Position numbers and translations under genes: made by a program
Notes under the pieces: generated by a model
Told to the model about the DNA's origin: nothing
Databases searched by the model: none
The model's input: the letters and a program-made list of their open reading frames with translations, nothing else
Shown here: positions 9,554 to 58,090 of the stretch, one piece after another
How the letters are laid out: the number at the start of each line of letters is the position of its first letter
Numbering within the stretch: the stretch's first letter is position 1
NCBI GenBank assembly: GCA_001630475.1
Contig: KV419420.1
Span: 332,097-396,096, forward strand
Direction: 5' to 3'
Source of the DNA: Sistotremastrum niveocremeum HHB9708
Lineage: Eukaryota > Basidiomycota > Agaricomycetes > Sistotremastrales > Sistotremastraceae
Length of the DNA: 64,000 nt

Positions 9554-12500
9554 TCAAGGCGAAGGGGTGCAAAGGTCGATAGTAGCACCCGAGACAAGTC
9601 TGCTCCGTTTGCGGGATGTTTCATCAGTAGATGGATCCGCAGGGTTCATTCGCTTGACGTTCTGAGAGACAGGCTGCAAAACCGACGCCGAAGAGGGCGG
9701 TCTCGGTGCGTCGACCTGGGAGGTGGGTGACGTCATCGGTGCGGCTGTATTGGCTTTAGCAGTTGCCGTGCTTATCGCACCGGAGGACGATTGCGGATTG
9801 AGAATGGCTGCAATTCGATCGCAATCGTCGCGTAGAATTTCCTGGATGTTTTGAGGACTTCCGAGAGCTTTTAGGGCTATAAGTGCTGCCTGCCGTCGCT
9901 CATTCCAGGATCCGATGCCGACGAGTGAATCTGGCTTAGTGATCTGGCGATGGTTCAGTTTCAGTCATTGGCATATTCATGAGGCAGGAACACACCTCCA
10001 GAGCATACGGTTTCTTCTCGCGAATAACCCGGAAATTCAATCCCAATCGCGACCTGATCCGACTTTCCAAGTGCTTTCGATCCTTGTCATTGCGTTGGGG
10101 GATGGCCACAATTCTCTCGGGCGCGGCCAGAGACTTCATAAGTTGAGCACACAATGGACATTGAGTCGAACATGCTAAGGCTGCAAGGCTCCCGTGCAAG
10201 ACTTGAAGATTGTTCGAAGGTCTCGGCTTGACGAAGCAGTCGACATATTTGACGATAATCTTTCGGCAGAATGCACCGTAAGGTTCCGCTGATATCGAGA
10301 TGTTATGCTCGGCGAGGACCTTCGAAAGCACGGCGATGAACGGCAGAGTTACTCTCAAGAAATGCCCGTTAACATCCTTCATCGGAGCTTTGATCCGAGA
10401 GAGAATGGACGGAATCAAGGCGACGGTCTCATTTTGGAAGCATAAGAGTAGTAGCTTCTTGGCTTCTTCAAGAGGGTCATAGACAGTGACGAATCTCGCG
10501 TACGGGTCCGGATTCGGGTGTTGGAAGAGAATATTCGCCTTGGAAATGGATATGGTCACCAACGACGCGACTAGGGCTTTGACCGCCACCCCTTCTTCAG
10601 TTTCCGGATCCGCCTTCCAAGTATCCGTCAGCAACTGCGCTAACGTGGCCGAGGTACTTGGACTGCTCCGGTATCCGTTGATGAACGACATGATCCTAGT
10701 TCATCGATAAGCGCCCAGGAATAAGCGGAAGATACGGAAGCAGACTTACTTGTCTTCCAGAATCTTGACTCCTTCATGCTTGAATCGCTTCACTGCGTTG
10801 ATAGCTGCCTTCCAATCCGGCGAATGTTCCTCCAAAATCCTGTCGACAAGTCGGACTGCAGTCGTTCGCAAGAATGGAGCATACGGGTCTACGGCAAGAT
10901 CAAGGGAGTGCGGGGGGCCGCGGAAGGAGTCCAATGCTGCGATGAGCGGCTCATGAACTTCTGATAGCAACTTGATTTGCGTGCCTCGATCTTCTTTCTC
11001 GTATCTTTGTGCCATTTTCTCGAAGATGGTACCACAAGATTCAGGAGAGTTGAAACTTAGACATGTACGGACAAGCTGGATGGTGGCATCGGGGTCGTAT
11101 TTGTATGGATTGTTGTCCTTCGTAGCGAATGGTTCGAGCTGGTCGAGGGCTGTCGTCAAAGTAGCTTTGATGACGTCATTGAGGGATTCGGCCGAAGAAG
11201 CGAGGTGGCTTTTATCGGCTCGTAGTCCCTCTAAGAAAGCAAACCAGAAAGCACGGGGAGACTTCAACGACTTGAGCTGAGGCAGCATTCTGAAGGAAAA
11301 TTATCAGAGTCCGCTGTGGATGAACCGTCATACGACCACTTACACATTGCGGACGTAGTCAGCTCCTTTGAGCCAACCGATTGCCAGCAAACACTCGACA
11401 TCAGCAGGGGAAGGTGTCTTCAGAGTACGAGCGGCTTCTTCACGCTGCTCGGCGCACCAGCTGGTTACTTCGGGCGATTTTCCGATCGGCGATTCCGACA
11501 AAGAACGGATGAGATTGAACCGATATGCGTTAGATAGACTCTTGGTGAGTACATCGGTCAATCTGAATACCATTAAATGGCGGGACATCATCCTGAACAT
11601 GAGGAACTCACACAGATTTGACCCTTTCGAATCCAAAAACGCAGGCCGCCTCGCTCAGTCTTTCACATTTGAATCCCGACGACGTAGATACGGCAGCGGT
11701 GAAGTTTCCGATCTGTGTGCCCCATAGACAGAGCTCATAGTCTTGCCATCTCAAAGCAGACTTGCAGACTTGCAAACTGGCTATATCGGAAGTTTGTCCT
11801 CCTTCAAAGTGAAATCTCATGCGCCGGATTATCCTTGCTTCTTCATTCGTCATGGCAGCGGATTCTGAACGTTTGAGTTTCTTCGAAGCTTCTTTGAACC
11901 AGTCTCGTCCCTGAACGGCCTCATCGCGATTTTCGGGCCATAGCAGAACAGCTTCCCAGCTGTACCCTAATGCGCAGTGAGAGGGAAGACGGAATCGGTG
12001 TTAGGCGATTACTTACAGCGTTCAATCTCAGCTTCCTGATGATTCAAGCAGCCGTATACGTCAGAAACAGGCAACAGTTGAAGGTGAGGACTACTCACTT
12101 TTTCATCATACCAGCCGTGATTAATCTTCTCGTCATCTGGTTCTTGTTCGTCTTCGTCTAGGCCGCTCGGATAGAAATCTCCGGTGTCCATTCCGAGATC
12201 GTCGAGATCGAAGTCAGGCGGGTTTTCATCATCATCGAAGAAGTCCTCCATCGTTAAACGGGTATCCGTAATTTCTTTCATCGTGTCATCGACCTCACCA
12301 TCAGAGTCCTCATCCGCGGTCCCCGTGACATGCAATCTCGCAGTTCCGAAATAGACTTTGAATCGCAGTTCCTCAGCGAGACAAACTAGAGCGTTGGAGA
12401 TGCTTGCGCGGTCTTCAGCGGAGTGTCCATCGAGAACGTAGGCAATCTTATTTGGAACACCCTTGGCAAAGTTTTGTCGCCAGGACAGAAGGACGTGGCG

Positions 12501-13770
12501 AATAGCGGAAGCTCTCGGAGCAAACCCGGATATCGCCGGACGAGGCGTTCCGATCGGTGCCGTCAGGTCAAAAACGAGAGCAAGTCGAAGGCCACTTTCG
12601 ACTGGTCGAGCTTGGTGTTGAAGACCGGTATACCAGCCAATGACGGAGGTGTTGTATGTGCTGTTGGCCGCAACGTCGAGAATTTTCGAACGACCATCAT
12701 GAGATACTCGTAGCTGGCCGTCTGTGAAGGGAGACGGGAGGACAACTAGGACTTCAGCGATGACGGATCCCGGTGTTTGAGGTCTATCAAGACTCAGATA
12801 AATGAGTGGTATCGAATTCAAATGATGACTCACTGTGAAGAAGAATGCCTGGAGAATATTCAATCATGGTTCAAAACTCGATGCTAATATAATGTGACTC
12901 ACGGAATATTTTTCCCACAAACGAGTCGTTTGAACGTCCAACTAGTGAAAGAGCGCACGCCAAGGTTTTGGGAGACAACGGGGAGAACGGAAGATCTGAA
13001 CCACTCGTCCCACGATGGGTTCTGCAGCCATACCTAGAGGCACGCGTAAACGATATGTACGTGGCGTTATAGAATTGATGACATACCTCATCGGGAGAGA
13101 GTTCCCATGTATCACGGGCCATATGTTGAGCGACACTAGTAGTCTGCGCATCTTTTCCAGACGCAAACCATTGGCACGTGTTAACCAAGTCCTGAGCACT
13201 GCGCGGGCTCAGAGGAAAAGAAAGCTCTCCTAGACCCGCAACAGTCAGCCCAGGCAGCGGAGCGGCAGTGAATATATGAGAGAAAGCTAGGTTGCCCTTG
13301 TATTGAGATACATCCATGTCGAACGCGGCCATCAGATCGGTCTGTTGATGCAATTAGTATATTCCGGGAAATTGTTCTCTTCATGAAGACAAGCTCACCT
13401 CAATATCTTCCGATGGATTCAATATTTTTTCATATTGGTCTTCATCATCTTCATACTCGGAGTCGTCCGAGTCACTGTCCTCATCCAGGTCGACGTCGCC
13501 CTCCTTGGAGCGAATTTCTTCGTGGACCTCTTCTACATCATGCGACTTGCTCTCGGCGGCTTCAACGGCGTCTACTTGCGTCACTGCAGGTTCTGGAAGG
13601 TTCGCAGGAGCCTGCTGTGAATCTGAGCCTGCTGGCAGGGTCGTGGCAACACTGGCATGCAGATCCACGCCGGGTTGTGCAGGCGGCGATGCCAAAGGCT
13701 TGTCTATCTCATAGCCAACGGGCTCCGCTAGGGCAGGAACAGATGCTGCTTGATCTCCGTGGGCGCTCAT
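9554..13770 (-). CDS. 2OG-Fe(II) oxygenase-fold paralog A, full length, HxD lost
   Basis: Multi-exon gene of about 1,000 aa or more. Exon 1 (13770-13399) codes a disordered acidic leader (SDSDDSEYEDDEDQYE). Next comes a PGL...LGEL.FPL segment, then the double-stranded beta-helix core (VVLPSPF, then WYTGL..Q.RPVESGLRLAL). A long helical region follows, a Cys cluster (CSTQCPLC), and a basic C-terminus (RKRSR) that could be a nuclear localisation signal. In paralog B the iron ligands HxD lie in an 18-nt micro-exon. Here the matching 15-nt micro-exon (12848-12834) reads PHSSSQ across the junctions, so the HxD column is SSS. The distal His and the 2OG-binding Arg ten residues later are kept. It is therefore probably not a standard oxygenase. 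A diverged copy of the cluster promoter block lies 59-79 bp upstream. Stop at 9554. Confidence 0.75.
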
Positions 13771-14469
13771 AGGGCCTCTCAGGAATCAGGCCTCAGCTGC
13801 GAGAAAGGCAGGAAGAAGGCGCGAAGAGCGTGACGCTACGTGTTGTCACGCGATAAATTCGGCTTTCGGTGCCTCAACACGCTTACTAAGCAGTAGTTCC
13901 TCGAGGCAATGTTTAATTATCTCAGATGTGAACGGGTTGAGTATTGTCGCTGCTCATATTTATTTTGACCAAGTGTGCTGATTTTTGTTTTAAAAAAGGT
14001 CACGAAATGTGTCAGATCTCACGGCAAGAGACGCAGAACATTCGCCCCTGCACGGCAAGGAACTCGAGAAAATTCGAGAGACACGGTATTGAACTCTCTC
14101 ATATCACATACGAGAATCAAGCTCATGACCAAAATATGCCGCTTCATATTAGGAAGTATACAGACAATTACAGAGATGCTAGTACAGCGCTAATACAGAA
14201 GGGATAATGGCCCTGAGAAGTACAGTGATAATCAGAACAGAATGTGTAAACGGACGGTACATCTAAGGAAATTCCCGATCGTGACCTGGATCAAGAATAT
14301 AATTATGTGGTCGCCGGGCCATGGGATCGGACCGAGGACGTTTTGGTTTCCGAAGTTACTGTTGCGAACGACGCGACAAATAGACCGATAGATAATATAG
14401 AGGAGATAGGATGAAAGCGGCATATTTTGGTAATTTTGGTGGTGATCAAGTGATGATTTTTGGGGTCAT
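13771..14469. other. Intergenic between paralog A and peroxygenase copy 1
   Basis: Holds the A promoter side, including the block at 13829-13849. The rest, up to the peroxygenase stop codon at 14470, shows only short unsupported open frames. Confidence 0.4.
13829..13849 (-). promoter_or_regulatory. Diverged copy of the cluster promoter block, upstream of A
   Basis: Read on the minus strand it starts GTGACAACACG and ends with an inverted GTCACG half-site. It begins 79 bp upstream of the ATG of paralog A. It shares its first eight bases with the 25-bp blocks upstream of B/C and D and keeps their orientation relative to the gene, but the later part is changed. Confidence 0.4.
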
Positions 14470-15879
14470 TTATTGACCAACGGGACCAGCTGGGAGGAGC
14501 TCGGGGCATCCGAAGGGAGTGGCAACAATCTTCAACAAGGTCTGGATGTTCTTCTTGAAAGTGGGGTTGGTGACGTTGTTGAGAGTGTGGGGAAGGTTGT
14601 TGAGGACGAAGTCGGAGTATGCGGCGTTGCACTACAGGAGCAATTGATATTAGCGGGGGATGTTAGTATAGAAAAAAATACGTACGCTAGTGTCAGTGGG
14701 ATCGAGGACATAGACTCCGTTGACGTTAGCACCGGGTTGGATAGGGTGGGGAGCGAGGACTTCGGCGGCGGTGTCGACAATGAAGTCGAAAGTACCGGGA
14801 GAGGAGCGACGGAACCAGTTGGGAGCGAATGTCTGGTTCTGGAAGATGGAAGTCAAAGCCTGTTTGCTCAAGAGACCGTCGGTTCCTGAAGAGGTTTTAG
14901 TGTGCGAGGATATAAATAAGAGGGGGGAAGCTTACCGTTAGCAAAGAAGGTGAGGATGAAGGCGGCCTCGTTGTAGCTGGAAGCGATGCGGCTGGAGTGG
15001 AAAGACACGGTCTTGTCCGCGGCTTGAGATTCCTGGAAGCGTTGGAATTTGAACTCTTGCATGACCTTCATGTTGACGATGGACTTGGGACCGTGGAGGG
15101 CGTTGTCATCTCCGAATTCCTCAATAGCGGAGAGGAACTATGTAATGTATGGTTGGTAAATCGACGAGTGGAAAGTAGGTGTATAAGTACCTCGTCGAAA
15201 AGATCGATCTGGAAGTGAACATCGTCACCGACGTTGAAATCTTGGCGGGTCATGGAGACATCGCCCTCGAAACGGTCATGCTTGGCGATACCGCCGGGAG
15301 GAGCAGGTCCATCGATGGCACCAGGGACGACTGGGATTTGAGGGGAGACAGAACCGATGGAGAGCTTGTTCAAGAAAGCGTTTCCGCGGGCCATCTAGGT
15401 AGACTGTCAGAATTGTTTGGATAGAATAATCCAGGAGTCTTACCATCGAGAAACCGGCCAAGAAACCTGCAAGATCACGATCCATGTTGAAACCCTCACG
15501 AGTTCCGGCGAGAATCTCCTCGAAGGATGCAATGCCATTGCGAGGAATATAACCGTGGTTAGCCAGAGTGTTCAAGGCAGCTAGGGGGTAGTGTTATTGG
15601 TTTACTTCCATTCTTTCCTGGAGCACTTACGGCAAGGTCCGCGCTGGTCGTTGGGTCCAGGCGCGATGAAGGGGTGGGCGGCGTCTGCGGTTCGTGTCAA
15701 GACTACGATGTGGAAGGTGGATAATATTACTAACCAGGAACCTTCTTGATACCGACATCCTTGGATCGAGGAGGGAGGGTGATGATCACACCTCCGTCGG
15801 AAGCAGTGGCTGCACCGAGGACAACGCTAGCGGACAGCGTAGCGGCAACGAAGGCAAATGCTTTGAGAGTTCCGAACAT
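14470..15879 (-). CDS. Secreted heme-thiolate peroxygenase, copy 1 (peroxidase family 2)
   Basis: Seven or eight exons code for a protein almost identical to copy 2 (33804-35210, about 367 aa). A signal-like N-terminus (LKAFAFVAATLSASVVLGA) is followed by the heme-ligand motif GPCPALN, split by an intron within the second Pro codon. Next come FEGDVSMTR (EGD Mg2+/heme-propionate site) and RIASSYNE (Arg and Glu seven apart). PCP, EGD, R and E together define the long unspecific peroxygenases, which use H2O2 to insert oxygen into C-H bonds outside the cell. A Cys pair near the C-terminus may form a disulfide, and NVT is a potential glycosylation site. The ATG is at 15879 and the TAA at 14470. 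A TATA box lies about 90 bp upstream. No defect was seen. Confidence 0.9.
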
Positions 15880-15966
15880 TTTAATTGGAGGTGAAGAGGA
15901 GGAGTGGTCGAGGATGACTTGTCAGAGAAGACTGGTCGATGGAGAACTCCTGCCTTCAATGATCTG

Positions 15967-15974
15967 CTTTTATA
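15967..15974 (-). promoter_or_regulatory. TATA box of peroxygenase copy 1
   Basis: TATAAAAG on the minus strand, 88 bp upstream of the ATG, followed by a CT-rich leader containing TCATCCTCGACCACTCC. The same arrangement precedes copies 2 and 3. Confidence 0.65.
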
Positions 15975-16405
15975 CAACCCATGTACTACCCGCATACTTC
16001 ATTGATGAATATTCACCAAGGCAGCGCATGGCCTGCTATACTGTTCGTCGATGTCACTCTGGGCGGCTTCTTAGTCATCGTGAGAGTTTCCATGAATTCA
16101 CTGTGTGTTACATCATAGTCAGCGAACTGCGAAGGAACACGAAGAGGTTGACGCACGAGCTAAAGAAGCCATCCATCACTACGCAGTGCGCACCTCAACA
16201 GCTCATTAAACCTATTTTGCTCTAGGAAGCCAGATATGCGAGCAAGCGTCGTCTATTATCCAGAAGATGGCCCACGATAGTGGACGTGCGGCAAGCTTAG
16301 CTTCCGTACCGAGCATTAATGGCGAATAAACTTGCAGTAGCTTCCTCTCGTCTCCTATCAATATAGACCCTACACGATCGACTAGGAGGCTTCAGGCTCT
16401 CCAGA

Positions 16406-17764
16406 TTAGGTAGCGGGATCGAACTTGTCCCTGAGTGAGCCTTTCGGAACCTTTTGATGTCGAAGAAAGACGTTCGACTCTGGATCACCAACTGGCAACT
16501 GCAGAGCACCTGATTGGATATCTAGTACGAATCCGTGCGCTCGGATTTCTCTCACCAAGAAACTTTTGCAGTATGGACCTACGGCTGTGGTTATCTTGGC
16601 GCACTGATGTAGATCACGGGAGCTGGAGGGACCTGACGAAACATCATTGGTGTCGTTATTGCGGTGACCGTCGCTGGAGAGGGAGCGTGGGAAAGCGGCA
16701 AGTCTCTGGTGCCTGATTGTCATGGGAAACGTCGGCGCTTAGCTCGGCTCTCGTTCCTTTTGGGGCGGATTTTTCGAGACGATTTTTCGGACAAACAGGT
16801 GCTATATGGTCTGGGGAGGTCCAGGACCTTCGAATTTCGTTTGTCTCGCCGCCGGGAAATCATGGTGCACTGGTATCAAACTACATTGCGAGATTGCTGA
16901 TTTTTGGGACAAATAATATCGACACTGACACATCCACCAAGCGAAGACAAGTATTCGCTTCGTGTGCTTTCCAAGCGGAGCAGACATGCGTCGGTGTTCC
17001 CACTGAACGCTCCCGGTGCGTCGTCGGCATCCGCATAAGGCGTAAATGGCTCTTCGACAAGATAGTGGGTACTGAAATCGGAGATCCGGCATGAGATCGA
17101 TTTGTAGACCGGGGTCCGGAACCTTAACGTGGCGAGGGGTACGATTAGGGAGGCACGCTGATCACTTAGCGACGACTAAGATTCTTCACAGGCACATACC
17201 AAATTGAGCCGTGGAGCCATCGATGACCAATGTGTTAAGGGGTAGACTCTCGTTCAAGGCATACGGGTGCAGCGCTGTGGTAGATGTTGATCCAAGCACC
17301 CGGTCATGCGGAGAATGTGGACGTACTTGTAGCGCGGCCGCGACTGAGCTCAGACTGGTGTTCGTATATGAAATTCGACCAATCGCACGGTTCGCGTTGA
17401 CGGGATCTAGCTGACAAGAAAGGTGAGCCACCGTCGATTCTAGAGAGGGCAAGGAGTAGCTCACACCGGTGGAGTCCGCAAAACACGCACAACTATAACA
17501 GTCGCCAGTGAACCATCAAATTCACTTACAGCCGTAGAAGTAGCCATACATTCTTATCAGAGGGAAAGGCATGTCGCGCATGAATGATCGATATCGAGTG
17601 CCTGATTTTGAAGTATTTTCTGAGACCAGATCATTACCGCCCAGAAGATTGATATCACGCCGAGGAAACATGAAACGTGGTCCGATAGTTTGTGAGAGCT
17701 GAGAGAGGTCTGGAAGGTTCGCACTACATTTGACAGAGAGGACCCGGGAGTGCTCCGCTAGCAT
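16406..17764 (-). pseudogene. Decaying gene of unknown function beside peroxygenase copy 1
   Basis: Two protein-like blocks are conserved in the duplicated flank. The first lies at 17764-17186: TRYRSF, MYGYFYGCK, then NANRAIGRISYTNTS and RPHSPHDRVLGS. The matching frame at 61255-61503 is nearly identical over its centre. A further conserved stretch near 17080-16930 reads HYLVEEPFTPYADADDAPGAF. The splice signals I can see between the blocks do not keep the best frame, and the matching regions near copies 2 and 3 have lost a donor site or carry stops. The second block, starting ATGACAATCAGG at 16723, is also shared by all three flanks but diverges in frame. I do not recognise a family. Probably a host gene copied with each peroxygenase and now decaying; the copy 1 version is the best preserved. 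Confidence 0.35.
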
Positions 17765-19499
17765 CGTAGTCAGGAATTCAACCGTTCTTTGCGGAGCGAC
17801 AGCGGGAAATGCATTATTAATCTGATGCAGACGAGTGCCGCCGAGACAAGTGAGTGAATTTTAGTCAAGGTTCGTGTTCGAGTGACGATACCGCCCGCAG
17901 TTGCAAGCAATTGATGGATGGATCATAATTCAGAACCCATGAGTTTGACATGAGAGTTTAGATATGTAGTTGGCAGATTTCGATTCTTTCTTCCCGTGCG
18001 CATCGTCCGTAAACTTGAAGCTCGTGGTGGTGAAATGACCGAGAGTAGAATCCTGACTAAGCGCCCACGTCAAGGCTGCCATGGCGTGGGATCTTCGAGG
18101 AGATTTTTCGTTCTAGACGCGGAGAGGAGCACGCCTGATGATCAGAAAAGATGAAGAAATATAAATATGAAGAGGGCCGGATTGATGGTGTATAGACATC
18201 GGAGATTTTGCTTCCGCATTCGTGTTCGCCGATGAGACCGAAAATCGAATGTTGTCCATCCTTTCAACACCAGTATGGCGACAGGGCTGGCGGAAGACCA
18301 AGAATTTTGTTGTTGGAAATATGCAGCTGGATGTTGGTGGATGGAACTGAGCAGCGTAGACTTCAGAATGAACGGGCCAAGGACGCCGGCGATTGGGGCG
18401 TTGAACGAGTGTTGCTTATCAAGATGAACTCGAGGTAGGCGGGCCATTGACTCGAGGATGTGATCAGTTGGAACTGAAGGCTAAAACCCATTGATAGTCA
18501 GATCATGTAACAAGCAATGCTGCAAGAACGAACCTCTGCAAAGTTTTCTGCGATGCGCCGATGCCTCCCATCCTTCGTCATTTGCAGGCTTCAGGGCATT
18601 GCGCAGCCAAAGAGCCCTACTAGTATGCTCCGCATATCCTCAATAATTTAAAGAAGGCATTATTGAAGACTTGAAAATGAAAAGGGGTTGAGTCGCAGTT
18701 GTTCGCCGATTGTAGTTGCTTGAATCGCCAGGTCGGAGAGCTCGCCCGGCAGCTGCTCTTGATCAGCCAGATACGTGTACGAGGTTTATAAGAGGTTGAT
18801 CAGAGATGTAGGGCAATAGAGACCAGCCAGGGAACGGTGATCGTTGGCAACGAGAGTCGTCGATGCCGTTGAGCGGATCCGAGTCCGAATAAGCGCTCGA
18901 AGACCGTGAACACGCTTCATTATCAAGAATATACAGTATCGACAGTTATTGACCAACACTAGTGACCATTAAGCATTCTCATGAAGAAAATTATATCTGG
19001 TGTTCATATGAATATGACGAGACGGTTCCGCGATCTCCCAGTACTTATATGATTTAGAGAGAGCCCTTATGGGTTGGTACGGCAGTTCGTCTATGATCGA
19101 AGGTTCAGAGCTGCAAGAGGTCAGCAGAGCAGCGCACTTCAAGATCGATCAAATTGAGCATCCCTGTATTTCGTGTCATTCGTGAAAATGTAACATAGAA
19201 CAAAAATGAGTACAGACGAGAATCCCGACTTCCCGCACCTATTGGGTTCCTCTACCCCGATCCCAACAGATCAGGCGTCACCCCTTTTTCGGATGAGATG
19301 GTCCCCAGTTCAGCGTTTTCAAGGAGAAGTCGTGACTCGTCCACCGGCACGCGGTCTCACTAAGGCCAGTCGTCAGCTATGTACCAGCACGTCCCCGTGG
19401 ACGCTTGACTGAGTTGAACCTGGGTCGCGACATCCAGTTACTCAGCCCTGTGATACACAGCGTTCTTCCGCCCAAGCTACCTCGCCCACCGTTAGTATA

Positions 19500-20160
19500 C
19501 ATAGTCGTAACAAACCTATAAGCAGTTGTTTTTCCTCTTGATGTTACATTCTCCCTCTTGTTTTTGAGAGGCGGTGCGGTTTGAGGTCCCGAAATCCAAA
19601 CGAAAAAAGGTTCAATTGTCCAAAAGGAAACGCAGGCGTGCGGCAGAGAACCAGGACGCGGAAACTGCAAACTAACCCCTTTCCCGGCGGGGACGGCCTT
19701 GGGGTACGAACTAACCGTCCGTAGTGACCCGTGCAGGCGTTTCCATTGCCTCGATTCTCGACACACGTCGCGCTGTTACATAGGGTGTTCAAGTCTGGCT
19801 ACCAGTGAGCAGAAAATTCCATTGTGAAAGCTGGCGGGTGGGTAGACGGTTGACCATAGTGATTCAAAGAGTGCTTCACCCAAGCAGCGCAAAAAGAGAA
19901 AGGTTGTCGATCCATAGTGCGTACAAGGGCACAAGGGGACGGGCCGCCGCAAGCCGAAGAAGTGAAAGGGATTTTGACTCTTTCTGCGTCTTCGATGATT
20001 CGTGATTCGTAAGCAGCCTGGAAGGCTCTCTTTGGCGAAATATAATTGATCACTTCTTTGCTGTATGTCGCCAGGGAAGGTACGAGCCTGAACACACAAC
20101 AGAATTCCTCGACTAATCCCAGACGATTTGAGGATAATTCCACGAAGACTGAGATGGGAC
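19500..20160 (+). repeat. Single end of long-terminal-inverted-repeat element
   Basis: Carries the family signature: a G/C-rich stretch around 19680-19720, then GCTGTTACATAGGG, and AAAATTCCATTGTGAAAG near 19810-19830. The same signature occurs in plus orientation at 21780-21960 and 52700-52860 and in minus orientation at 23930-24100, 54050-54240 and 59240-59420. No partner end lies close by, so this is either a solo or a truncated element. Confidence 0.5.
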
Positions 20161-21700
20161 AAAATGCTCGTCGCCAGACACGTAGTTTACAGCAGCTACT
20201 CCATTGACACGGCGAGATTATTTTCAGAATTCAGGATAGCCAGCGCTGGGTCCGCCACAGGCTGCATGGTTCAGGAGCACGAATCGAACGAATTGTTTAT
20301 CCAGATCACCACTTCGAAATTGCACAGAGCAAGAGTTTTCTGACGGCTTGAAAGAGATGTACGGCGAGTATCAACTTCGAGGCATTCGAAAATTGCTTTC
20401 GACATCATCGGGGTGAATAAGATCGAGATCGGATTTCGGTAATACGCATTCGGCACGACTCGGCAGGCAGGAGCCGAAAATGCGTACTTATCGGCGAGAC
20501 GCTGGTTCGATTCCCTGGTCAATAACTTACTTCCTATCGACCTGCACCAGCCTCACTGGCTGCCAATATTCAGATGTTTTGCGCCCGGAATTCAGTCGCT
20601 CTCGATATTACATTACTCTCGTCAACAATCAAGGCGCAGGATCCAAGAATTCCCAACGAGTTTTTCGACTCCTAGGGCGTCGGGGACGGATTAGATGACG
20701 CGAAGGATGCATCGACGCTCAGGGCGGAAGATGTAGAGATGTCTGTTAACTTTGAGGATGCGGAAGGGATATTGACGAAGAGCTCGGGACCTCGGAGTGA
20801 GTGAATCTCTTCTTCGACGTGGGAGGCCGACTGATAGCTTGAAAGGGTTTTAATGCCCCTCATTGCACCGTCGTCGTCACCTCATCGTCCTACGACTCCC
20901 TTTACCAGTCACATCCTCTCTTGTCGTACGTAGCTTTGTGCCCAAGTCATCGTCGTCTCGAATGTTTTGGTTCACTCTTTCACAGCACCGGGCTTCGCAC
21001 ATCCACTAGGTGGCTCTGCATGGGCATTCAACAGAGCTCGGCGCTACGCCGTCGGCTCTATTCAATGCAGCTACCATATCCTCTCAGGTGTGGAAGCGTT
21101 CGCGTTGCATAGCCAATGTCACTGAGATACTGCTGCTCGATGAGCTATGCTCAGTTCTCGGCTCCCAGAAATTCGTTCAATCCGTTCAGACGAGCTTGCT
21201 TCTGTTGCGATCGTGCCGAACGCCTTCGCTAAGGCTACAGACTTCCTGTGTCGATCTGCTAATCATCCACTGGCTTACTCGGTCTTGTTGGATGAAGCAC
21301 GAAATCGCATAGCTTTGTCTGACATTGCTACGACGTCTGGCGAACACTACTGGGACCGCTAGAATGCGAGGAGGGGTCAACCGCGAGATTCTGAGCATCG
21401 CTAGTTGCAATGCAGTACTAAATTGATCTCCAGTGTTGGCATCCTGAGCACGTCCATGACAGCAGACTGACCCCGTAAACATTCCTGACACTCAAAGCGG
21501 CGACTCGAGAAGGTGCTCCATAGCGACTTGGCGATTATTTGCGTAGCGAGTTTTGCACACTCCTTTGATTACATCCACCTATCATTCCTCCAAAGATAAC
21601 ATTCGTTGTTTTTCCACAGAGTTGCGATATCGGCCTTTCCACTGATTGCACTCGCTCGGTTGATTCGTCTTATCGCGGGTGCAGTTCGGGTGTGACTGAG
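20160..21700 (+). repeat. Decayed duplicated block, inverted relative to 54.3-55.6 kb
   Basis: Three segments match the minus strand of 54.3-55.6 kb in the same order: a B-box-like GGTTCGATTCC near 20504-20514 (minus-strand match near 55500), a stretch at 20690-20880 (match at 54930-55110, sharing TATTGACGAAGAGCT), and 21190-21480 (match at 54515-54740, sharing CGATTTCGTGCTTCAT on the minus strand of this block). Neither copy holds a complete gene. The 54.9-55.1 kb copy has the better open frame. Origin unknown. Confidence 0.5.
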
Positions 21701-25604: not shown

Positions 25605-26150
25605 GGGAGATGGATGGACGAGGTAAAAGGCCTATATTAAATAGTTATACGTTAAATGATCTGTCAAGAGTCGGACTGGCGCGATCCATGTAACCCTCGA
25701 GTGCGAGCGTAGCGAGAGATGGACGGTGGGCGCCTAAAAATTGCCTGCGGATTTCTTGAAAGCAGAGTGAGTGCTAAGATATTCTGTGGAAACGATACAA
25801 GGCCTGTTACAAGGATGTCATTTATTGCGCTACATTCTACAAGAACGAGACAGATCCATCCAGTACAAATGACGAGGAAACTCGGGTCCGTATATTTATC
25901 TGCAGCAGTCCTTAGTCAGGGTATCGTCTCTGAAGAAGATCATCATGAAAAGGAGAGAAGGCGTAAATGTGATCAAAAGAAGGATCATCTACAAAAGCGC
26001 ACCGTACACTATCGAGCGAAGCAATAAATGAACTGATAAATGTCAATAATTCGAAGAATAAATCAAGGGAATATTAGGTGAATGGTTGAATGAGATGTTT
26101 GGACTGAAAAAAGAATACCGAGATGCATACGCCGAATTAGTTCAGGCGGA
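25605..26150. other. Intergenic, no gene seen
   Basis: Lies between the start of the DUF6589-like gene and the stop of paralog B, both on the minus strand. One open frame (25719-26027) is highly charged and unsupported. Nothing else noticed. Confidence 0.4.
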
Positions 26151-33702: not shown

Positions 33703-33710
33703 TATAAAAG
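33703..33710 (+). promoter_or_regulatory. TATA box of peroxygenase copy 2
   Basis: TATAAAAG, 94 bp upstream of the ATG, followed by the CT-rich leader shared by all three copies. Confidence 0.65.
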
Positions 33711-33803
33711 CACATCATTGAAGGCAGCAGCTCTCCATCGACCAGTCCCACCTGACAAGTCATCCTCGACCACTCCTCCTCTTCCTCAACTCCAAAGAAA
33801 GAA

Positions 33804-36106: not shown

Positions 36107-42888
<6,782 letters not shown>

Positions 42889-46300: not shown

Positions 46301-46711
46301 GATTGAACTCTATCCCGAATTCGGACTGAAGTACCACACGAACACTGATCGGCGTACCTTTCAATTCAATGGGAATTGTTATGGTCTTGTGGTAAGCTTG
46401 GAACTCTCTGATGTCGACGGTTTTTAGATAAATCTTTGCAGATTACTAAACCCGATTGGATAATGAATTTTGGTCGATGGAGCCGCTGTAGAGAGGTCGC
46501 ACTCGCCGCAATCAATGCAATACCCTCCGGCAGACGTCAGCGAAGCATCTTTGGCAATAATTACGCTCGGATCTTGGACAAGCTGGCCACCTCTGATCCG
46601 GAGACGCTTCCTATTCACGAGGCTCCGTGGGCCGGAACTTCAAAACGCGCATTGCCTTCCTCATTCGGCGGCGAGCAGGGTGCCAGCAAGAGAGGCAGGA
46701 ACGACCCCTGA
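43370..46711 (+). CDS. 2OG-oxygenase-fold paralog D, catalytic core missing
   Basis: The acidic leader (SEDELEDEVENPCRNIK) matches the first exon of B (ending NPCNNIK). It is joined through an apparent GC-AG intron (43646-43700) or direct read-through to an unrelated Thr/Asn-rich stretch. The protein then resumes family sequence at HILLSWRQSF, so the PGL..LPL segment, the micro-exon and the whole beta-helix core are absent. The rest is complete: VVLIWPENR, the helical region (GFDKVKSL, AVDDVIKATL, NEGLGLRRL), the Cys cluster CGCDYC and a tail with SKRGRNDP. If expressed, D would be a C-terminal-domain-only protein that cannot bind iron or 2OG. The remaining splice sites and frames look normal, which argues against simple decay. 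The 25-bp block lies 103-127 bp upstream. Confidence 0.6.
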
Positions 46712-47537
46712 TTATTTCGGGCACTTCCTGCTTGCTGTACATGGTTTATTTCGGTTGACGATTCTTATGGATCACCTCGAACATCTTACATTGACTTTCA
46801 ATGCTTTATATTCTGATTATTTAAACATGTACATGTACAGAAGGGGGATTAGAGCTGCCTTGTCATATATTAGTAGTAATCGATTGATGGCTCACTTCGT
46901 TACTAACTTCGACACATATATTTCTCAATTTCTCTGGATATTTCTTTATTTCTTGTAGTCAGGTTCAAACTCCGCTTTCGTCGCGCGCTCAAGGTGGTTG
47001 CTATCGTTCTACTGTAGAAAAACGACCATTGCGGCGCGGGTGGGGACAGGGGACAAGAAAATTACACTGCGGCGGTAAGGCACCAGGCACGGGGACAGGG
47101 GACAATGTGTAAAAAATGACTCTAAAACACGATATTTTGATGTAATCTAATCAGTATTGATCTGTGAATGCCTCGAGATGTCATAGACAATGTTTCCACA
47201 CAGCAGGGAATATTTTTGCGATTTTTTCGAATATTTAAATGATTTATTTATTAAATTACGACGAAAGGGACACGGGACAATTTCAAAACATAGCGGCACG
47301 GCGGACCCTGGGGACAGGGGACACGCCGCTGTGGTCTTTTTTCTACAGTATACGAGCTACTGTACGTACTACTCTCAAAGCCTTGTCTCTAGGCTTGTCC
47401 TTGTTCTCCTCCTGGCCTTTTGTAACAATGGCATCAACATCCGGGACTGAATCCAAAGCTTCAAAAGCCTTGTTCGCTCACTTCATCCTCCAACCCCCCT
47501 GCCAGTGGAGGCCAACTGCACGTTTGCAACCGCAGGA
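46712..47537. other. Intergenic between D and E with a MITE
   Basis: Holds the 337-bp TA-flanked element at 47012-47348. Upstream of it (46712-47009) the sequence is AT-rich with no gene. An ATG at 47428 gives a short frame that does not splice in phase with paralog E. Confidence 0.5.
47012..47348. mobile_element. MITE with TA target duplication (Tc1/mariner-like)
   Basis: The ends are inverted copies: CTGTAGAAAAACGACC on the left and the reverse complement of CTGTAGAAAAAAGACC on the right, with GCGGCG soon inside each. TA flanks both sides (47010-47011 and 47349-47350). At 337 bp it is far too short to code a transposase. Inside, GGGGACAGGGGACA or a close variant occurs four times, twice near each end, around an AT-rich centre. 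It lies about 190 bp upstream of paralog E. Confidence 0.75.
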
Positions 47538-50500
47538 ATGAAAATTCAGCCCGGTCCTACTCGGAAATCGCGAGGAAGAGTCTCAGGCGATCCGAAAAAT
47601 AGTGAAGATAGTGGAGTGGACTCCGAGGAAGATGAGTTTGAAATAATATCCAATCCCTCCAACGATGTTCGGGTGCGTCTTTCGAATCAACACTGCTCAT
47701 TGACAAATGACCGTATCCTGATCATGATTGAAATAGGCTGCTCTCACCGCTGCATTTGAGTTGCTGGTCGCAGCACGTTCTCGCGGAACATTTGCCTGCT
47801 CTACGACAGTGGATGAATTTCCCATGCCGGGCTTACATATCTGCGGATATGGATCCGTCGCTCTTCCATTAACCGAACGTATTGCCCAAGAGATTATCAA
47901 CTTCTGCTCCAAATCTGTTTCCTCACAGACAAAGGGTAGACATGTATCGGAGATTTCCGCAAACAACGTAAGTTCTGCCACGGCCAAACACCATGATCAG
48001 CCTGACTTCAATCAGATATCTCTGCAAAATTCCCGTTGGAGTACCTGGCTCAGAGAAAAAGTGTTACCAGAAATCACTTCCTCTCTTGGAGTGTTCTGCG
48101 AGGCGAAATGCGAACTTGATAGATTGATTTTGTACGAGGCGGGCTCACAGTGCGTTTTATTCTTCCCATCTTGTTCTCATATGGTATTCTGACTACATCC
48201 TTGATAGTGTTATTCCTCATCAAAGGTGAATATTTCTCGTTACCCCCCACAACCCATTCTTGAACATTCGTTTCCAGGTCTCAGGGAGAAACAAGTGCAT
48301 TTGGATCAGTCTTAGTGACACTTCCTTCCTCCTTCAAAGGAGGTCAAGTCCACATGTCGCACTCCGGACAAATTAAAACCTTCGACTTGGCCCAGACAAG
48401 CTCATTCGGCGTCTCGGCCCTTGGGTACTACACCGCAATCCACCAATCATCGAAGCCCATCACGAGCGGCTATCAGCTTGTTCTGGCTTACAACCTCGTC
48501 ACTCCTCCTGGTGTAAAGCCTCCTTCTCTCATCGATTCATCCGAGGTTGTAAAAGCTGTACGGCATGCACTTCTCTCCTGGAGTCAAGGGTACGGCCCCA
48601 CCAAGAAATTGGCCTATGCGCTTCAGGAACATTATGATCCCTTCGGAACCCGAGGAGAAAACCTCAGCGACCAAGATGCTCAGGTCGTCGATATTATTCG
48701 ATCCCTTGCTGCGGAATGTCGGATCGAAGCTTACCTCGCCAATGCAGAATTGTACGTCGCTGGTGAAGCAGAGCGTCGTCATGGCGAATATCAGATGGGA
48801 GCCATCACGAGCTCAGAGATGACGATCACGGATGTCACTGATCTATCCGGACAAGAACTCGATATAGATGGCTTGGAATTTGAGCACCCCAAGGAATTTA
48901 TCCCGAAACCTTTGGATGACTATCCGCCAGATGAAGAGGAACCTCCCCCACTGGAACCAATAGACAGCGAGTCCAGCGAGTCCAGCGACTCTAGCCACTC
49001 CCCTATTGATGATGATGTACGTTCGGCTTCACTGTTTCAATTTCGCCAGTCCTCAATTGATTTTTTCGCGCCCTGTTTCACAGGATTCCGATGTTTGTCA
49101 TGGAGAGATCTTTTACAGTAAGGTTCTTTCCATTTTTCATTCTCGTTGCTTACCCTATCGGTAGCGTACAGGAGAAGCGTACTCTTGTTATGGCCTACAA
49201 GACTACATGAAACGATTCTGAATGACGTTAACTGGCTAAAAGATGCGGCTTCAAAGTTGGCTCTGTCTAGTCAACGCACCCACACCCACTCAGACAAGAA
49301 GTTAGTCGAAGGGGTAGTGCGGAGATTAGAACACAATGGCTCGCCTTCACAGATATGCCGTGATATCTGTGGCGAAGCATTGAGGAGCCGTAATCTAGAT
49401 CTCTGGCTCCTTGGATCCGGTGCCGGGCGATTCGAAGGCGGATCATCTATTCTGTCCCATCAGGAGTTACTCGAGGCCATCTCGGCCTTCGGATTCAAAT
49501 CCGTGCAACCCGTGTAGGTGCCGCCGTCAAACTGACACATCCGAGAACTAAACGTGATCTCAGACTCGAATATGTACTGAAACACAGCCCCACGAATCAG
49601 CGTCGGCTGGCTTTGATTGCTTCAATAACGAGCTCTCCGTTCTACGAAACCCACGAAGTCGAAAAGTGGTGTCAAGATCAACGCGAGCTTGCCTTTAAGA
49701 CGCTGAAGACGGCAACACTCTCCGACGTCGAGGTGCTGGTCGCCTTAGCCGCATCCAGAGGAATCGCGTTTGTTCAACAATCGTAAGTTTGATCTTCCAC
49801 TTCGACGCGCTGTAATATTCAAGCTGTTCTAGGATCATCCCTCAGCTGTTACAGTTACAGTGTTCTCATGCTTTCTGGATCGTATTTCTGAACAAGTTAT
49901 TCGAAGAACGAAGCCGTATTGGGCCTTCCGCGCACGAAGTTCATACCGTCATCATTCAGGCTCTCAGTTTATATCTCCAGATGATAGATCCGATGGTCCT
50001 GAAGAACTCTGGAGATCCCCATGCTCCCGCTACCTACGATCCGCTCCCAGTCATGGAACTCATCGAGCTCTGTGTCGAATTAGAGATGGCCGAAACTTGC
50101 TCCATCCTCTTCGATAAGATACTTCAAGCTCCTATTCCCTCCGACGACGACATGCGCAGCGATCGCACGGCGCTGTTCTATCAGCCAATCTTGTCTAATT
50201 TGACAGATTTGGCCGGATCTCATGACGTGAATTGGAGTCACGAGACATTCGCTCCATCCGTGGAGATGTTACTTTCCGAGGTCATCCGTGACTATCTTCA
50301 AAATGAAGATCCTTGTTGGGAAGCAGCGATAAAGACGGCTCGGATCGGTGGGGTCAAGGGTTTTGGGCTCCTCGAAGCATGGTACGTATCAAACGGGTCT
50401 CCAACGGACCGAAATAATGCTGACGTCTTGGTAGGCTGATCTCTCATGTAAAGAGCCTGCATGGCGGTCACTGGGAATTCATTCGGGACCTCGGCCAGCA

Positions 50501-51375
50501 TTGGGATATGCATTCGGACAATGAGGAAGGTGTCGCAGTCAAGACACTGATCTCCAAGGTCATCACGTCCCTGATCGACTACCAAACGCTGGATATTCAA
50601 CGTTCCAAGAGCCTGCTGGTGCTGTGCTTGGAGACTGAGGATATAGCCCTCTCCGAGAGAGTTCTTACGCGTCTCAAGACCTCAGCAAATGATAGCCACG
50701 CCTATTACAGCGATGTCGTGATACCGTTCATCGCGATCCTCGGCCATGAACTCAGCACGCGAAAGATCAAGATTTCTTCGAAACCGTACGGCCCGTGGAT
50801 CGGAGAGGTTATGCTAGAATTTGCCGACAAGATCATGGGTCCTTTACCGGCAGCAAGTGCAGCCATTCGGCGTGAAGAGCTGGAGGACCTTGATTGTGGA
50901 TGTGAATCTTGTCAATGCATGATTGACGGATTGGCGAGTGATGACTCAGTGGTTTTGTTGAGGGGAACCGCAAAAGAGCGAGCGCATCTCGAGACGCAGA
51001 TTAACCTGTCTCGCCTTGACCTTCAATTTGACACAATCAAAGACGGGAAGCCTCACACTCTCCAGGTACGTCCATTTGGCGCTGGTTCGACATCGCACTC
51101 CCTGAACCCTTGCATCATAGATCATTAAACCGCCCTCACTCACCGCTGGAGGGATTTGGAATGATCGTCGGGATCGGGCGGTCGAAAGCATCCAAGCTAT
51201 CAAACCTGCCAAGATCTGGCAACAAATATTGGCGGACGATTTTCAGAGGATTCTCAAGTTTCTTGGACTGACTCTTTCGTCGCCGGCGCCTCGATCTTCC
51301 AGGCGACCTATTCCGACGAACACTGCATCGAAAGAGGCGCCTCATACCCGAAGCAAGACGACTTCCAACCGCTAA
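47538..51375 (+). CDS. 2OG-Fe(II) oxygenase-fold paralog E, full length, ligands altered
   Basis: About 1,050-1,100 aa in 11 or so exons. The first exon ends SNPSNDVR. Next comes PGLHICGYGSVALPL. The micro-exon 48208-48225 and its neighbours give GSHVIPHQRSQ, so HxD reads HQR: the His is kept and the Asp is replaced. The core then has LPSSFKGGQVHMSH and YTAIHQSSKPITSGYQLVL. The distal His column is Gln (a His sits one residue earlier) and the 2OG-binding Arg is Gln. Then come VLLLWP, the helical region, the Cys cluster CGCESC with RAHLETQI, and a basic tail (RSSRRPIP, RSKTTSNR). It has the most complete architecture of the family beside A, but is probably inactive as an oxygenase. The start was chosen at the first ATG after an in-frame GTG; the true start could lie upstream. 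Confidence 0.75.
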
Positions 51376-51509
51376 TGTTGAGAACATTGCGATCCCGTAT
51401 CTTGGATTTTTGGCAGCTGCTCATCCTTGCATATTTCTCGATCACCTCCAGAGACTGGAAGCGTGATTCTTGTGATCAATATATGGATGTGAATATTATT
51501 AGTTGACAG

Positions 51510-52401
51510 CATTCTCCTTCCCAGAGGTAATACAGTTGCTCGCTCCTATCGTTCTTATTCCGAGGGCGAAGGGGGGATATTAGGAGAGGGCGATAAGCGA
51601 GGGCGGAGATATCGGTTGAACAAGCGAACGAACAGGAGGAGCAACTGTATTAACCTCTGGCCAAAAAGACCTCCGGTTTGCGATCCGAGATCGAAGCGCC
51701 CAAGAACTTCGCTACTCAGCGTGACAGGCTCTATGCTTTCTGGTTGACCCAAAATCAGGACGAGAAGGCCTCCGATTACCCAATTGAAGATGTAACATAG
51801 TGAATACATTTTGTAAAAGAGATCTTCTGCATACGGTTTGCATTTCCGAACTCAAATCCAATTACTGTATCCGAGACTGTCATATTGCAGATGCTGGCCT
51901 GAAAATCCTTGCAGGAGGTTGTCATTCGAGAATCCGAGGCGCGTGGACCAATGAACAATGTTTTCAGCGTTTTGGGAGCAATCACCCCCGCGTTCACCAC
52001 GATCCTAGTGATATGCAGAGGTCGTTGAGCCCGGCAGCTAAGAAATTCATAGTTTTATAGCAAATCTCGTATGAGACTTCGGAGAAAGCTCGAACTTGAT
52101 ACTCTACTAGTATACGTCCTGTGATACTCTCGTCAACCGCATCGGGTTTCAGTAACAAAAAACAGAAGACTGCGATGAAATGGTGAATGCGTGACTACGA
52201 CGAGAAATTCGGCTCGGAACCCTGGGTCGGAATCGGAGGTCTTTTTGGCCAGAGGTTAATACAGTTGCTCCTCCTGTTCGTTCGCTTGTTCAACCGATAT
52301 CTCCGCCCTCGCTTATCGCCCTCTCCTAATATCCTCCCTTCGCCCTCGGAATAAGAACGATAGGAGCGAGCAACTGTGTATTACCTCTGGGAAGGAGAAT
52401 G
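51510..52401. mobile_element. Non-autonomous Mutator-like element with 9-bp target duplication
   Basis: The two ends are inverted repeats of about 168 bp (51510-51677 and 52234-52401), nearly identical apart from a 2-bp gap and one or two substitutions. The tips read CATTCTCCTTCCCAGAGG. The flanks carry a perfect 9-bp direct repeat, AGTTGACAG, at 51501-51509 and 52402-52410. Long terminal repeats with 9-bp duplications are characteristic of the Mutator (MULE) superfamily. The 556-bp interior has no credible transposase frame. Each arm holds its own palindromic sub-unit of about 140 bp bounded by CCAGAGGT and ACCTCTGG. The close match of the arms and intact target duplication imply recent movement. 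Confidence 0.8.
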
Positions 52402-52439
52402 AGTTGACAGCCCATTGCCGACGAGCCCGAACACATGAG

Positions 52440-52464
52440 GTGACAACGCGCTGTGACGCGTCGC
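52440..52464 (+). promoter_or_regulatory. Orphan copy of the 25-bp GTGAC block
   Basis: Matches the B/C block except for the last pentamer, where GTGAC has become GTCGC. No gene of the family follows: a long-inverted-repeat element begins about 200 bp downstream. It may mark a lost or displaced family member. Confidence 0.5.
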
Positions 52465-52663
52465 ACTTCTTCCTTCGAATCCGGCGTTCATAACTAGCAC
52501 AATCCCCACAAGCCATCTAACAGGCTGGCCTCAGCCTCAATGCAATCATCAATCCAAAAGCGAAGCACTACATCAAGACTCAAGGTCAACTTGAGCGAAC
52601 AATCCCAAAAACAATCTATCCACTCACCTCGCAAGGGAAGGCATTCGACCAACATTTAATGAT

Positions 52664-54290: not shown

Positions 54291-54299
54291 TAAGGTCAG

Positions 54300-55570: not shown

Positions 55571-55793
55571 TCGACCACGATGTCGAAAGTAAATTTTCCA
55601 GGAATACCACTTCTTCGCATGCCTTCCAGTGTATCGAGGACCTCGACCATCAATTTATCAAGAAATAGGTATTTGAATTCAAGGGAAAGTCCTTTTTTCT
55701 TCGGAACTATATAGTGCGTCCTTCGTATTTCTGACCTCTAGACTCGCATCTCACCTAATGGCTCAGATCATGGGAATGTCATAAATATATGTA

Positions 55794-58090
55794 TCAAATG
55801 TTCTGAATTAAGGATGTCAGTCGATTTCCAATGTCCAACGAGGATATCTACTCACTGTCAATTTGCGCTGTTCCTCACACCAATCTTTGACGCCCGGGAT
55901 TTTCGATAGTTCGGAATAAGATATGGAAGAAATCTCGTAATCACGTTTCCACTTCTTGGGCATCTTCTCAAGAACGGCGGCCATCCTACGCGGATCTCAG
56001 CTTCGCGACGTTTGACTGATGGATGTTACTTACTGTTCTTTGACGTTCTCGAAACCGAACGAAGAGGCTGCAGTTCTGAGTTCTTTCATATCGAGCAAGG
56101 CATCGCCACGTTTCTCTTCGCTAAGTCGGAAGACCGACTGCCAAAGACCAAGGGCCTTCCATTTCATGGCAGTCAAACAGATTGACCGAAGAACTCTCCG
56201 GTTTGTGTGAGTTGTTTGTCGTCCCAGTGTTTCTTCGATTTCTTTGATTAGTGACTGTTCATCCAGCGTAGGTGATGAGGATCTCGAATGCAGTACTTTC
56301 GATACAGAAACCTGGAGCCAGTCGTTGCCCAAGACAAAGTCTCGTGATTGGCTGGGCCAAAAGATGACCACGATCCCTTCGTACCCTAGCAAATCATTAG
56401 CAAAAGGCTAGCAGAAGAGTATACGTAGTTCAAACATTCAGACAACTCAATTGCCGCCTGCAGATTGGGAACGGTCAGTATGATATTGAGTGGGAAGAGC
56501 GTGTGGGATACTGACGTCGTGGAGTAGATCGTGGTGGTGGAAAAACTCCTCATCTTCGAGTAGCTCGTAAACACGTTCATCATCATTCTCTGTCGTGACT
56601 GGTGCTCTGTCGTCCAGTTTCAGAGAAATAAATTCTTGAGGGTGCTCGAATTCGAAGTCTTGCAGATCCACTTTGTTTCCCTCCAGATTGACAACTTTTT
56701 CAATAGAAAGCGAAGAGTCGCTTATCTCTCCCATGTGGTAATCACGACAGTAAACATCGTCGGAATCATCTCGCTTCGCACTTCCAGTGACCTCCAACTG
56801 AGCCTTAGCAAGGTAGATATCAAACCCGCATTCCTCGGCGAGCGTTCCGAGAATGTCGACTACCCGTATATCGTCCAGGTTCAGCGAGCTAGGATTGATA
56901 CGGGATTTGAATGCGGTGCTGTAGGACTCGTAATCGTCGGCGAGAACATACGCCAATTTTTCAGGCAGGGAATCATCTGAACTTTCTTTCCAGGAGCGGA
57001 GAGCATCTCGAATTTTCGAGACGATGTGTGTGATGTCAGGAGCATGAGGTGCTTTGACTCCGGGGTCCGCAACTAGGTTGTAGATGAGGGCCAATTGGTA
57101 TCCTTCCGTGATTGCGTCTCTTTCGACGTGCACGTTATTGTATTGCGCTATGACGGACGTCTGAAATTCGCTATTGTGGGATGTGGAAAAGGTCTTGGTG
57201 AGGGAGCTGTGGGAGAGCTGGAGCTCGCCGCCTTCGAATGAAGATGGTAATAGGACCGTGATTGTGCCAAAGGTTGACGAAGGTTCTTCAGTGCTATGTC
57301 AAGAAAAGGAATTAGTGACGTCATTGGTCGAACATATCGACATGACTGACTCTTTGTTGTGAAAGGGACTGAACATTTCAACATATAATCAGATACCGTA
57401 GGGAGGGACTCACGTGGATCCTTTTCCGTATATCTTCAACTCTCGGAGCTCGCATTTTACGGATGAGTCGATGGAGAGACGCTTCTTCACTTCACGTATC
57501 ACGGAGGCTCTGAACCATGCGTCCCACTTAGGGTTATGGAACGAGATCTATTTCAGCGGTTAGCGACAGCAACGATCTTGGGTTGAAGAGCCTGAACGCA
57601 CCTGGTCTGCAGATATTCCTGCCTCATTACTAGTAGATTCCAGAGACGAAAGAGAGGATGCAAGCTCCAGTATCTCCTGCGCAGCACGCTCGTACAGAGG
57701 CAGTGGAAGTCTTCCGTATCCCTTGATGTCGATTCCGGGCGATGGCGCGTCGGTGAACGTTTGTGAACAGGCGTAGACCCCGTAGAACTCTTCCGCTTCT
57801 TTGTCCAAAGTTGCACCGAGAGAACCGAGAGTGGCCTATTGATACGACGTTGAGATCAGCGATGAGTCTAAGTCATGCGTGGTGTTACGCACTCGTATCT
57901 GGTCGCCTAGGTTGGGTGGTTGATTGGGAACTTCCTTCGGGTCTGTGGATTTCTGTACGGCGAGGATTAGAGTAATGATCGTATGGACGTATGCCACATA
58001 GTCTCTTACGCGTCCATCGACATTCTGAGGCGCTTCATCACTGTCAGAGTCGCTAGGGCTGGCCATCCTGACAGAGTAGGTTCGCGGCAT
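55794..58090 (-). CDS. 2OG-Fe(II) oxygenase-fold paralog F, C-terminally short, ligands altered
   Basis: Exon 1 starts at the ATG at 58088-58090 (a second in-frame ATG follows at 58066). Exon 2 ends NLGDQIR and exon 3 contains PGIDIKGYGRLPLPL. The micro-exon 57368-57351 gives PFHNKDTEE: the Asp is kept, the iron His column is Asn, and a His stands one residue early. The core shows NNVHVERDAITEGYQLAL, with distal His and Arg columns Val and Gln. After VVIFWPSQS the helical region runs to VKDWCEEQRKLT and stops soon after, near 55794. The second half present in A, D and E is therefore absent, as in B and C. The tail has no basic signal as clear as in B or C. Frames and splice sites look intact. 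Probably a catalytically dead short form. No 25-bp block was found upstream. Confidence 0.7.

Follow-up and report, generated by a model that had tools for sequence, protein, structure and literature searches.

Broken copies in tandem arrays of 2-oxoglutarate oxygenase-like genes of Sistotremastrum niveocremeum are probably kept for a non-catalytic role

Why does a fungal genome hold, next to genes with an intact oxygenase active site, a row of relatives in which that site is destroyed while the reading frames stay open? The question arises from a 64,000-nucleotide stretch of the basidiomycete Sistotremastrum niveocremeum HHB9708 (assembly GCA_001630475.1, contig KV419420.1, designated C27 here), which we call the window (C27:332097-396096) and which is part of a 34.7 Mb genome. 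The window carries paralogous genes resembling the 2-oxoglutarate (2OG)-Fe(II) oxygenases, enzymes that use an H-x-D...H triad for iron and an Arg for 2OG binding. A sequence-only reading of this stretch had proposed one active enzyme among diversified pseudoenzymes. We consider it likely that these genes belong to a tandem-expanded, probably nuclear family of 2OG oxygenase-like proteins whose broken copies are kept for a non-catalytic role; our best reading is that catalysis was given up several times while the protein was kept.

Complete and broken copies in two arrays

Six gene models, designated A–F, were obtained at 9.55–58.1 kb of the window, where blocks of paralogous open reading frames (ORFs) appeared in a six-frame comparison; the sequence-only reading had likewise counted six clustered paralogues. 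B was assembled manually, and the remaining paralogues were modelled with a custom splice-aware protein-to-DNA aligner. A whole-genome search with the B barrel found 10 further copies on the + strand (C27:285.9–326.5 kb), whose models, designated t1–t10, span C27:285.2–329.5 kb, and the array continues ~47 kb upstream of the window. The same search detected one copy each on C56 and C16, a group of distant copies on C45 and a weakly matching sequence on C5; all such copy counts are minimum values. Relative to t10, which serves as the reference for residue numbering, the models can be aligned over 451 codons (C) up to 1,167 codons (t8), and intron positions and phases agree across the C27 array.

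In t10 numbering, the key catalytic columns are H210, D212, H268 and R278. The complete H-x-D/H/R set is present in 7 of the 16 C27 genes (B, t4, t6, t7, t8, t9 and t10, all HQD/H/R), in the single copies on C56 and C16, and in five of the eight copies on C45. The C56 gene is the nearest relative of B (81% in the barrel), and its model ends before the C-terminal domain. Eight C27 genes have a broken barrel (A, C, E, F, t1, t2, t3 and t5), and in one, D, the barrel is absent. The claim that only one gene has a complete set therefore holds inside the window, but six complete genes lie directly upstream in the same array; the picture of a single active enzyme among pseudoenzymes was an artefact of the window edge.

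Five of the window genes (A, B, C, E and F) share, as first described, an architecture around a micro-exon that carries the HxD position, 15 nt long in A and 18 nt in the others. In gene B (26151–28881, − strand; 765 aa, 9 exons; HQD/H/R), the H-x-D site is carried by the micro-exon at 28192–28209 (−); B lacks the C-terminal Cys-cluster domain and ends in a bipartite basic tail. Gene C (29180–31271, + strand) reads KPD/L/L, with K-P-(D) on its micro-exon (30122–30139, +); it is cut off after the post-barrel segment and then runs through a basic tail to ARRKRRKT, and its 5' end is uncertain. Gene E (47469–51375, + strand) is near full-length, with 1,087 modelled codons and an uncertain start codon; it reads HQR/Q/Q, with H-Q-(R) on the micro-exon (48208–48225, +), and has a CGCESC cluster. 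Gene F (55795–58248, − strand), for which both model ends are uncertain, reads NKD/V/Q, with N-K-(D) at 57351–57368 (−), and lacks the C-terminal half. These four motif sets reproduce those of the sequence-only reading. For the near full-length gene A (9554–13695, − strand; 1,147 modelled codons, with uncertainty over the first exon and the start codon), both distal residues, His and Arg, are kept, as had been stated, but the triplet is SSQ and not SSS. Two acceptors follow its micro-exon (12834–12848, −) in tandem, a GAG with the exon at 12792 and a TAG with the exon at 12783; the canonical TAG gives S-S-Q, the last codon being split into CA and A. A retains a CSTQCPLC cluster, the bipartite basic tail and a TIDLCTPSP end.

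Gene D (43412–46711, + strand) had been described as lacking the core, and the whole barrel is indeed missing, as an in-frame deletion in a 972-aa open model of 8 exons. The frame runs through exon 1 and the opening codons of exon 2, continues in phase from the middle of exon 5 and stays open in every exon after that. D retains the acidic N-terminus, the later domains, a CGCDYC cluster and the basic tail. The broken upstream genes, all on the + strand, are t1 (DQS/Y/Q), t2 (PPS/R/Q), t3 (DGT/H/R) and t5 (DSS/L/R), the micro-exons of t1 and t3 having been read by eye.

Another array, diverged from the first and modelled without the micro-exon, holds at least eight oxygenase-like genes at C45:87.8–150.3 kb. 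Three of the eight copies found there have lost HxD (99687, 102310 and 87795), and these contain no stop or frameshift in stretches of ~190 aa. A pseudoenzyme lacks the conserved catalytic residues of its active relatives (PMC10211241); eight C27 barrels, D and three C45 copies are pseudoenzymes in this sense.

The cut-off of 27 bits for PF13640 (2OG-FeII_Oxy_3) was exceeded by B (34.9–40.4 bits, E 3.1e-8), t10 (39.2) and C45:144097 (36.3). Among the seven broken barrels scanned, A, C, E, F, t2 and C45:99687 gave no Pfam match at E ≤ 1 and t3 reached 14 bits, below the cut-off, so that routine annotation would miss them. The B barrel does not fall into the TET/JBP class, as PF12851 gave 11.8 bits on it against a cut-off of 34.9, and the likeness to the PKHD-type hydroxylase models NF003972–NF003975 is weak (21.4 bits for the t10 barrel, cut-off 143). 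The C5 relative and a PF13640 match on C3 were left unclassified.

Constraint on the broken copies

Birth-and-death evolution would provide a simple account of such an array: the broken copies would be functionless duplicates that are drifting to loss and have not yet been frameshifted. The truncations in the array fit this account (loss of the C-terminal domain in B, C, F and t3 and of the barrel in D), as do mobile-looking repeats between the array genes and the longer protein branches of the broken C27 copies (0.42–1.05, compared with 0.12–0.57 for the complete copies and C56, the complete outlier C16 at ~1.7 being left out). The state of the reading frames opposes it. The models of the eight broken C27 barrels and of D contain no stop and no frameshift, and five of these copies are long (t1, t2, E, t5 and A; 1,087–1,147 codons). 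If their terminal branches were neutral, ~26–57 stops would be expected per long copy, and 20–33 in C, F and t3, at 0.055 nonsense changes per missense change (computed range 0.051–0.057). In a neutral simulation (200 runs, 1,021 codons), the first stop appeared at a median of 0.015 substitutions per codon and by 0.068 in 95% of runs. Among the final C27 models, a frameshift occurs in t6 alone (near C27:309185), a catalytically complete gene, and may be a real lesion, an assembly error or unusual splicing. In addition, t1 and t2 have both lost all four catalytic residues and both have open frames, which fits inactivation before their divergence.

We also estimated the ratio of nonsynonymous to synonymous substitution rates (dN/dS, or omega). 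With IQ-TREE, omega was 0.163 for the five long broken copies and 0.211 for the six complete full-length genes. A branch model gave 0.170 for the broken branches, including the t1–t2 ancestor, and 0.208 elsewhere, and fixing omega at 1 cost 773 in twice the log-likelihood difference (2ΔlnL). Taken singly, the broken copies gave dN/dS values of 0.142 (t1), 0.137 (t2), 0.168 (E), 0.180 (t5) and 0.191 (A), which are rough in size because synonymous change is saturated, and a value of 1 was rejected for each (2ΔlnL 39.4–83.1). It was likewise rejected in the core region for C (19.1), F (12.7) and t3 (24.9), and for the barrel columns alone in the broken copies (139.2). An omega of 3.9 on the t1–t2 ancestor was not interpreted, given the saturation and values of 0.076 and 0.1 in two constrained fits.

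A dN/dS near 1, which the sequence-only reading had named as a result that would speak against it, was thus seen on no broken branch tested, all values lying well below 1. For the other such result it had named, alternative splicing that restores HxD, inspection by eye showed a possible route in the sequence of A alone, by way of a GAG acceptor. The marks of a pseudogene (stops, frameshifts, dN/dS near 1) were found in none of the broken C27 models, the dN/dS part covering the eight barrels. The evidence from open frames is independent of saturation, and low dN/dS in the five long copies also opposes drift to loss. We therefore regard simple decay as unlikely. The earlier view of A, C, E and F as retained pseudoenzymes gains from these results, since their frames are open and their structural columns and, where present, the Cys cluster are kept.

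Pattern and number of the catalytic losses

Residue loss in the broken copies is focused on the active site. In the eight broken C27 barrels, catalytic cells were kept in 8 of 32 cases, compared with 180 of 262 for other invariant barrel cells (Fisher test, P = 2.6e-6), a contrast that is partly circular in that the catalytic residues define the broken class, and that takes A as SSQ (an alignment placing the A micro-exon one step off gives 9/32). The loop columns 206–225, the Tyr at position 196 and the Cys cluster lie outside that definition. The otherwise invariant columns of this loop were kept in only 9 of 59 cells (P = 5e-14 against the same 180/262). Tyr196, 14 residues before the first His, was lost in all 11 broken barrels of both arrays and present in all 14 complete barrels (P = 2e-7); in A, its column holds Phe or Lys depending on the alignment.

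The earlier statement that each copy is broken differently holds only in part, since shared changes are evident as well. Arg278 is replaced by Gln in four (t1, t2, E and F) of the five copies that lost it, t3, t5 and A have all lost HxD but still have the Arg, and the same Tyr is gone from every broken barrel. Survivors among the broken C27 copies are His210 in E, Asp212 in C and F, His268 in t3 and A, and Arg278 in t3, t5 and A. Because each of the four residues survives somewhere, no single residue loss can explain all eight copies on any tree. Two routes fit the pattern, one through loss of Arg and the distal His (t1, t2, C, E and F) and one through loss of HxD with Arg kept (t3, t5 and A). 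Trees of the full alignment resemble this split with weak support; the core tree and a tree rooted with bacterial relatives instead place C beside t5 and t3. In the C45 tree, one broken copy joins a complete one (support 80), separate from the other two (support 100). The shared-residue logic would require at least two inactivations in C27, and the tree points to about two more in C45.

Loss of the canonical residues might also mark catalysts with a new function, in which ligands have migrated or an altered site performs other chemistry, and migrated catalytic residues are known among pseudoenzymes (PMC10211241). Two copies offer some material for such a scheme. In F, a His sits one residue ahead of the lost position, and A keeps the distal His and Arg and could be spliced to 'HLD' through the GAG acceptor 9 nt upstream of the TAG. 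We set this version of A aside as splice-implausible. The acceptors of 117 conserved-position introns in the final models were 53 CAG, 50 TAG and 14 AAG, a tally that is not independent since GAG was barred in those models; models in which GAG was permitted used it in A and in a few stretches of weak support. More generally, each of the eight broken barrels lacks at least two of the four residues, up to all four, and nothing replaces them consistently; the loop is eroded and Tyr196 lost in all broken barrels, and D has no barrel. New chemistry thus appears to be a distinctly improbable explanation. Concealment of intact motifs by errors in gene models or assembly is very improbable: micro-exons are easily misplaced, and the readings of A, t1 and t3 shifted between model versions and inspection by eye, but intron positions and phases are consistent, the distal His and Arg, both missing from t1, t2, C, E and F, are encoded within one large exon without interruption, and a three-frame reading by eye of the micro-exon intervals of A, C, E, F, t1, t2, t3 and t5 revealed no alternative besides the GAG of A.

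The remaining protein, its relatives and a possible role

The six full-length complete C27 members, B not being among them, share a barrel, a CxCxxC-type domain, a basic bipartite tail and an IDL(C/S) end. The CxCxxC-type cluster is found in the full-length C27 members, most of which also have an ITKP segment, and is more widely spaced in t8, t9, t10 and A; the models of B and C56 stop short of this region. All six broken copies that reach it (t1, t2, t5, A, D and E) keep the cluster. The C-terminal domain, predicted from three window pieces (mean predicted local distance difference test score, pLDDT, 72.5), would be all-helical, and the model has no match in the PDB at E ≤ 0.001. A sequence search of solved structures returned nothing relevant, and an AlphaFold prediction of exon 5 (six window pieces) was not used owing to its mean pLDDT of 47.6.

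A bipartite basic tail resembling a nuclear localization signal was found in 14 of the 15 C27 genes tested, among them B, C, D and t3 despite their other missing parts, and in seven of the eight broken copies tested. Since the pattern also occurs in 10 of 57 bacterial relatives, it is enriched in C27 but is no proof of a nuclear signal. The ends of t4, t6–t10, A and C16 are of the IDL(C/S/T) type, that of C16 being VIDLTLSP; VIDLT is the core of the SUMO-interacting motif of PIAS1 (PMC3901395). A nuclear location of the family is probable, and these ends are putative sites of SUMO (small ubiquitin-like modifier) binding.

A scan of bacterial and archaeal genomes, with complete barrels as queries, found relatives at 72 loci. 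Many of the bacterial relatives are from Planctomycetes, and others are from Nitrospira, Acidobacteria, Gammaproteobacteria and further groups; a scan of viral contigs found none. The bacterial barrels are mostly 43–61% identical to that of t10, and the ORFs are mostly ~800 aa, with the regions in the same order as in the fungal genes in the ORFs inspected. Distal His and Arg are each kept in 69 of the 72; His210 and Asp212 (72/72) and Tyr196 (68/72) are kept as well, counts that are biased because these residues were present in the search seeds. A C-terminal CxCxxC...RxHL is present in 34 of the 57 ORFs complete at the 3' end. In contrast to the fungal genes, none of the 57 has the acidic stretch upstream of the barrel or the IDL(C/S/T) end; the bipartite basic pattern was sought in the last 60 residues, and two of the relatives (L052 and L056) end Lys-rich. 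The fungal genes thus have the appearance of an older oxygenase family in extended form.

Several known systems are similar in part. Epe1 of fission yeast is a nuclear protein with a 2OG-oxygenase fold, a non-canonical iron-binding set and no shown in vitro activity, and its non-enzymatic function resides in the C-terminus (PMC7192584). Epe1 belongs to the JmjC family, and the passages on it mention no array (PMC7192584). Expansions of TET/JBP in basidiomycetes are also multiplied fungal 2OG dioxygenase genes, but these encode DNA dioxygenases and some are transposon-encoded (PMC8889193, PMC12730594). Known pseudoenzymes that accompany active relatives, FAM20A and STYX among them, regulate, scaffold or compete (PMC10211241); the main text of that review has no word beginning with 'oxygenase' or 'JmjC', and the passages on them mention no comparable array. 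Among the literature matches listed, we found no account of the arrays of this family or of fungal 2OG pseudoenzyme arrays, which is a weak negative.

Other features of the window were also recorded. A long repeated element, probably mobile, occurs in both orientations at 14446–20230, 32500–35230 and 58974–64000 (~40–100% identical in short translated pieces), and two of its ORFs have no Pfam match. Directly downstream of E lies an inverted, near-identical short repeat (51479–51744 and 52152–52490). Between C and D is a row of ORFs (36322–41720, + strand), one of which (37547–38317) matches an ABC transporter membrane region (PF00664). An F-box protein ORF (PF12937) lies at 1540–2715 (− strand), and downstream of B a 279-aa ORF (24795–25631, − strand) has an acidic stretch and no Pfam match.

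How might broken copies be of use? They would be pseudoenzymes held by purifying selection for a non-catalytic role, in which the retained domains, together with an inert barrel in most copies, would likely bind a substrate or partner that is used by the active paralogues. In this way, the broken copies may compete with, scaffold or tune the active members, three modes that the data do not tell apart. D keeps nearly all but the barrel, which suggests that the barrel is dispensable for such a role.

Several observations weigh against retention for such a role. Synonymous sites are saturated (the terminal branches of the five long broken copies carry 3.6–7.5 neutral substitutions per codon), and the dN/dS values are rough accordingly; the tests cover the broken C27 barrels. 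The broken barrels are also slightly relaxed (0.189 compared with 0.122; 2ΔlnL 4.05). Without their C-terminal halves, C, F and t3 could be heading for loss, and the D model requires a GC donor at intron 1. By the approximately unbiased test, the eight broken C27 barrels could still form a single clade (P = 0.16), and the bacteria-rooted tree unites them with modest support. The Cys cluster is not universal even among complete copies, being absent from the C16 model, as is the whole domain from B. The tail pattern was defined after the tails had been seen, and shuffles of the positive C27 tails match it at frequencies of 0.002–0.16; E lacks the tail, and F, with its uncertain model end, was outside the test. 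Among the broken copies, A alone keeps the IDL(C/S/T) end.

A more specific idea, which we hold to be a long shot, is that the two arrays together act as a nuclear recognition system that diversifies fast. Its chemistry would come from a few active oxygenases, and many pseudo-oxygenases, one of them barrel-less, would serve as variable binding partners that steer the active enzymes, compete with them or mask them. Conflict with selfish DNA and non-self recognition would be examples of such a setting, and the pseudo members would have arisen several times.

Retention for a non-catalytic role, which we prefer, gives the locus its wider interest. One genome holds complete, partly broken, fully broken and barrel-deleted siblings in two arrays, and the bacterial relatives are nearly always complete. 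This allows us to ask in what order catalysis was lost, to what use the remaining protein is put and whether inactive copies tune the active ones.

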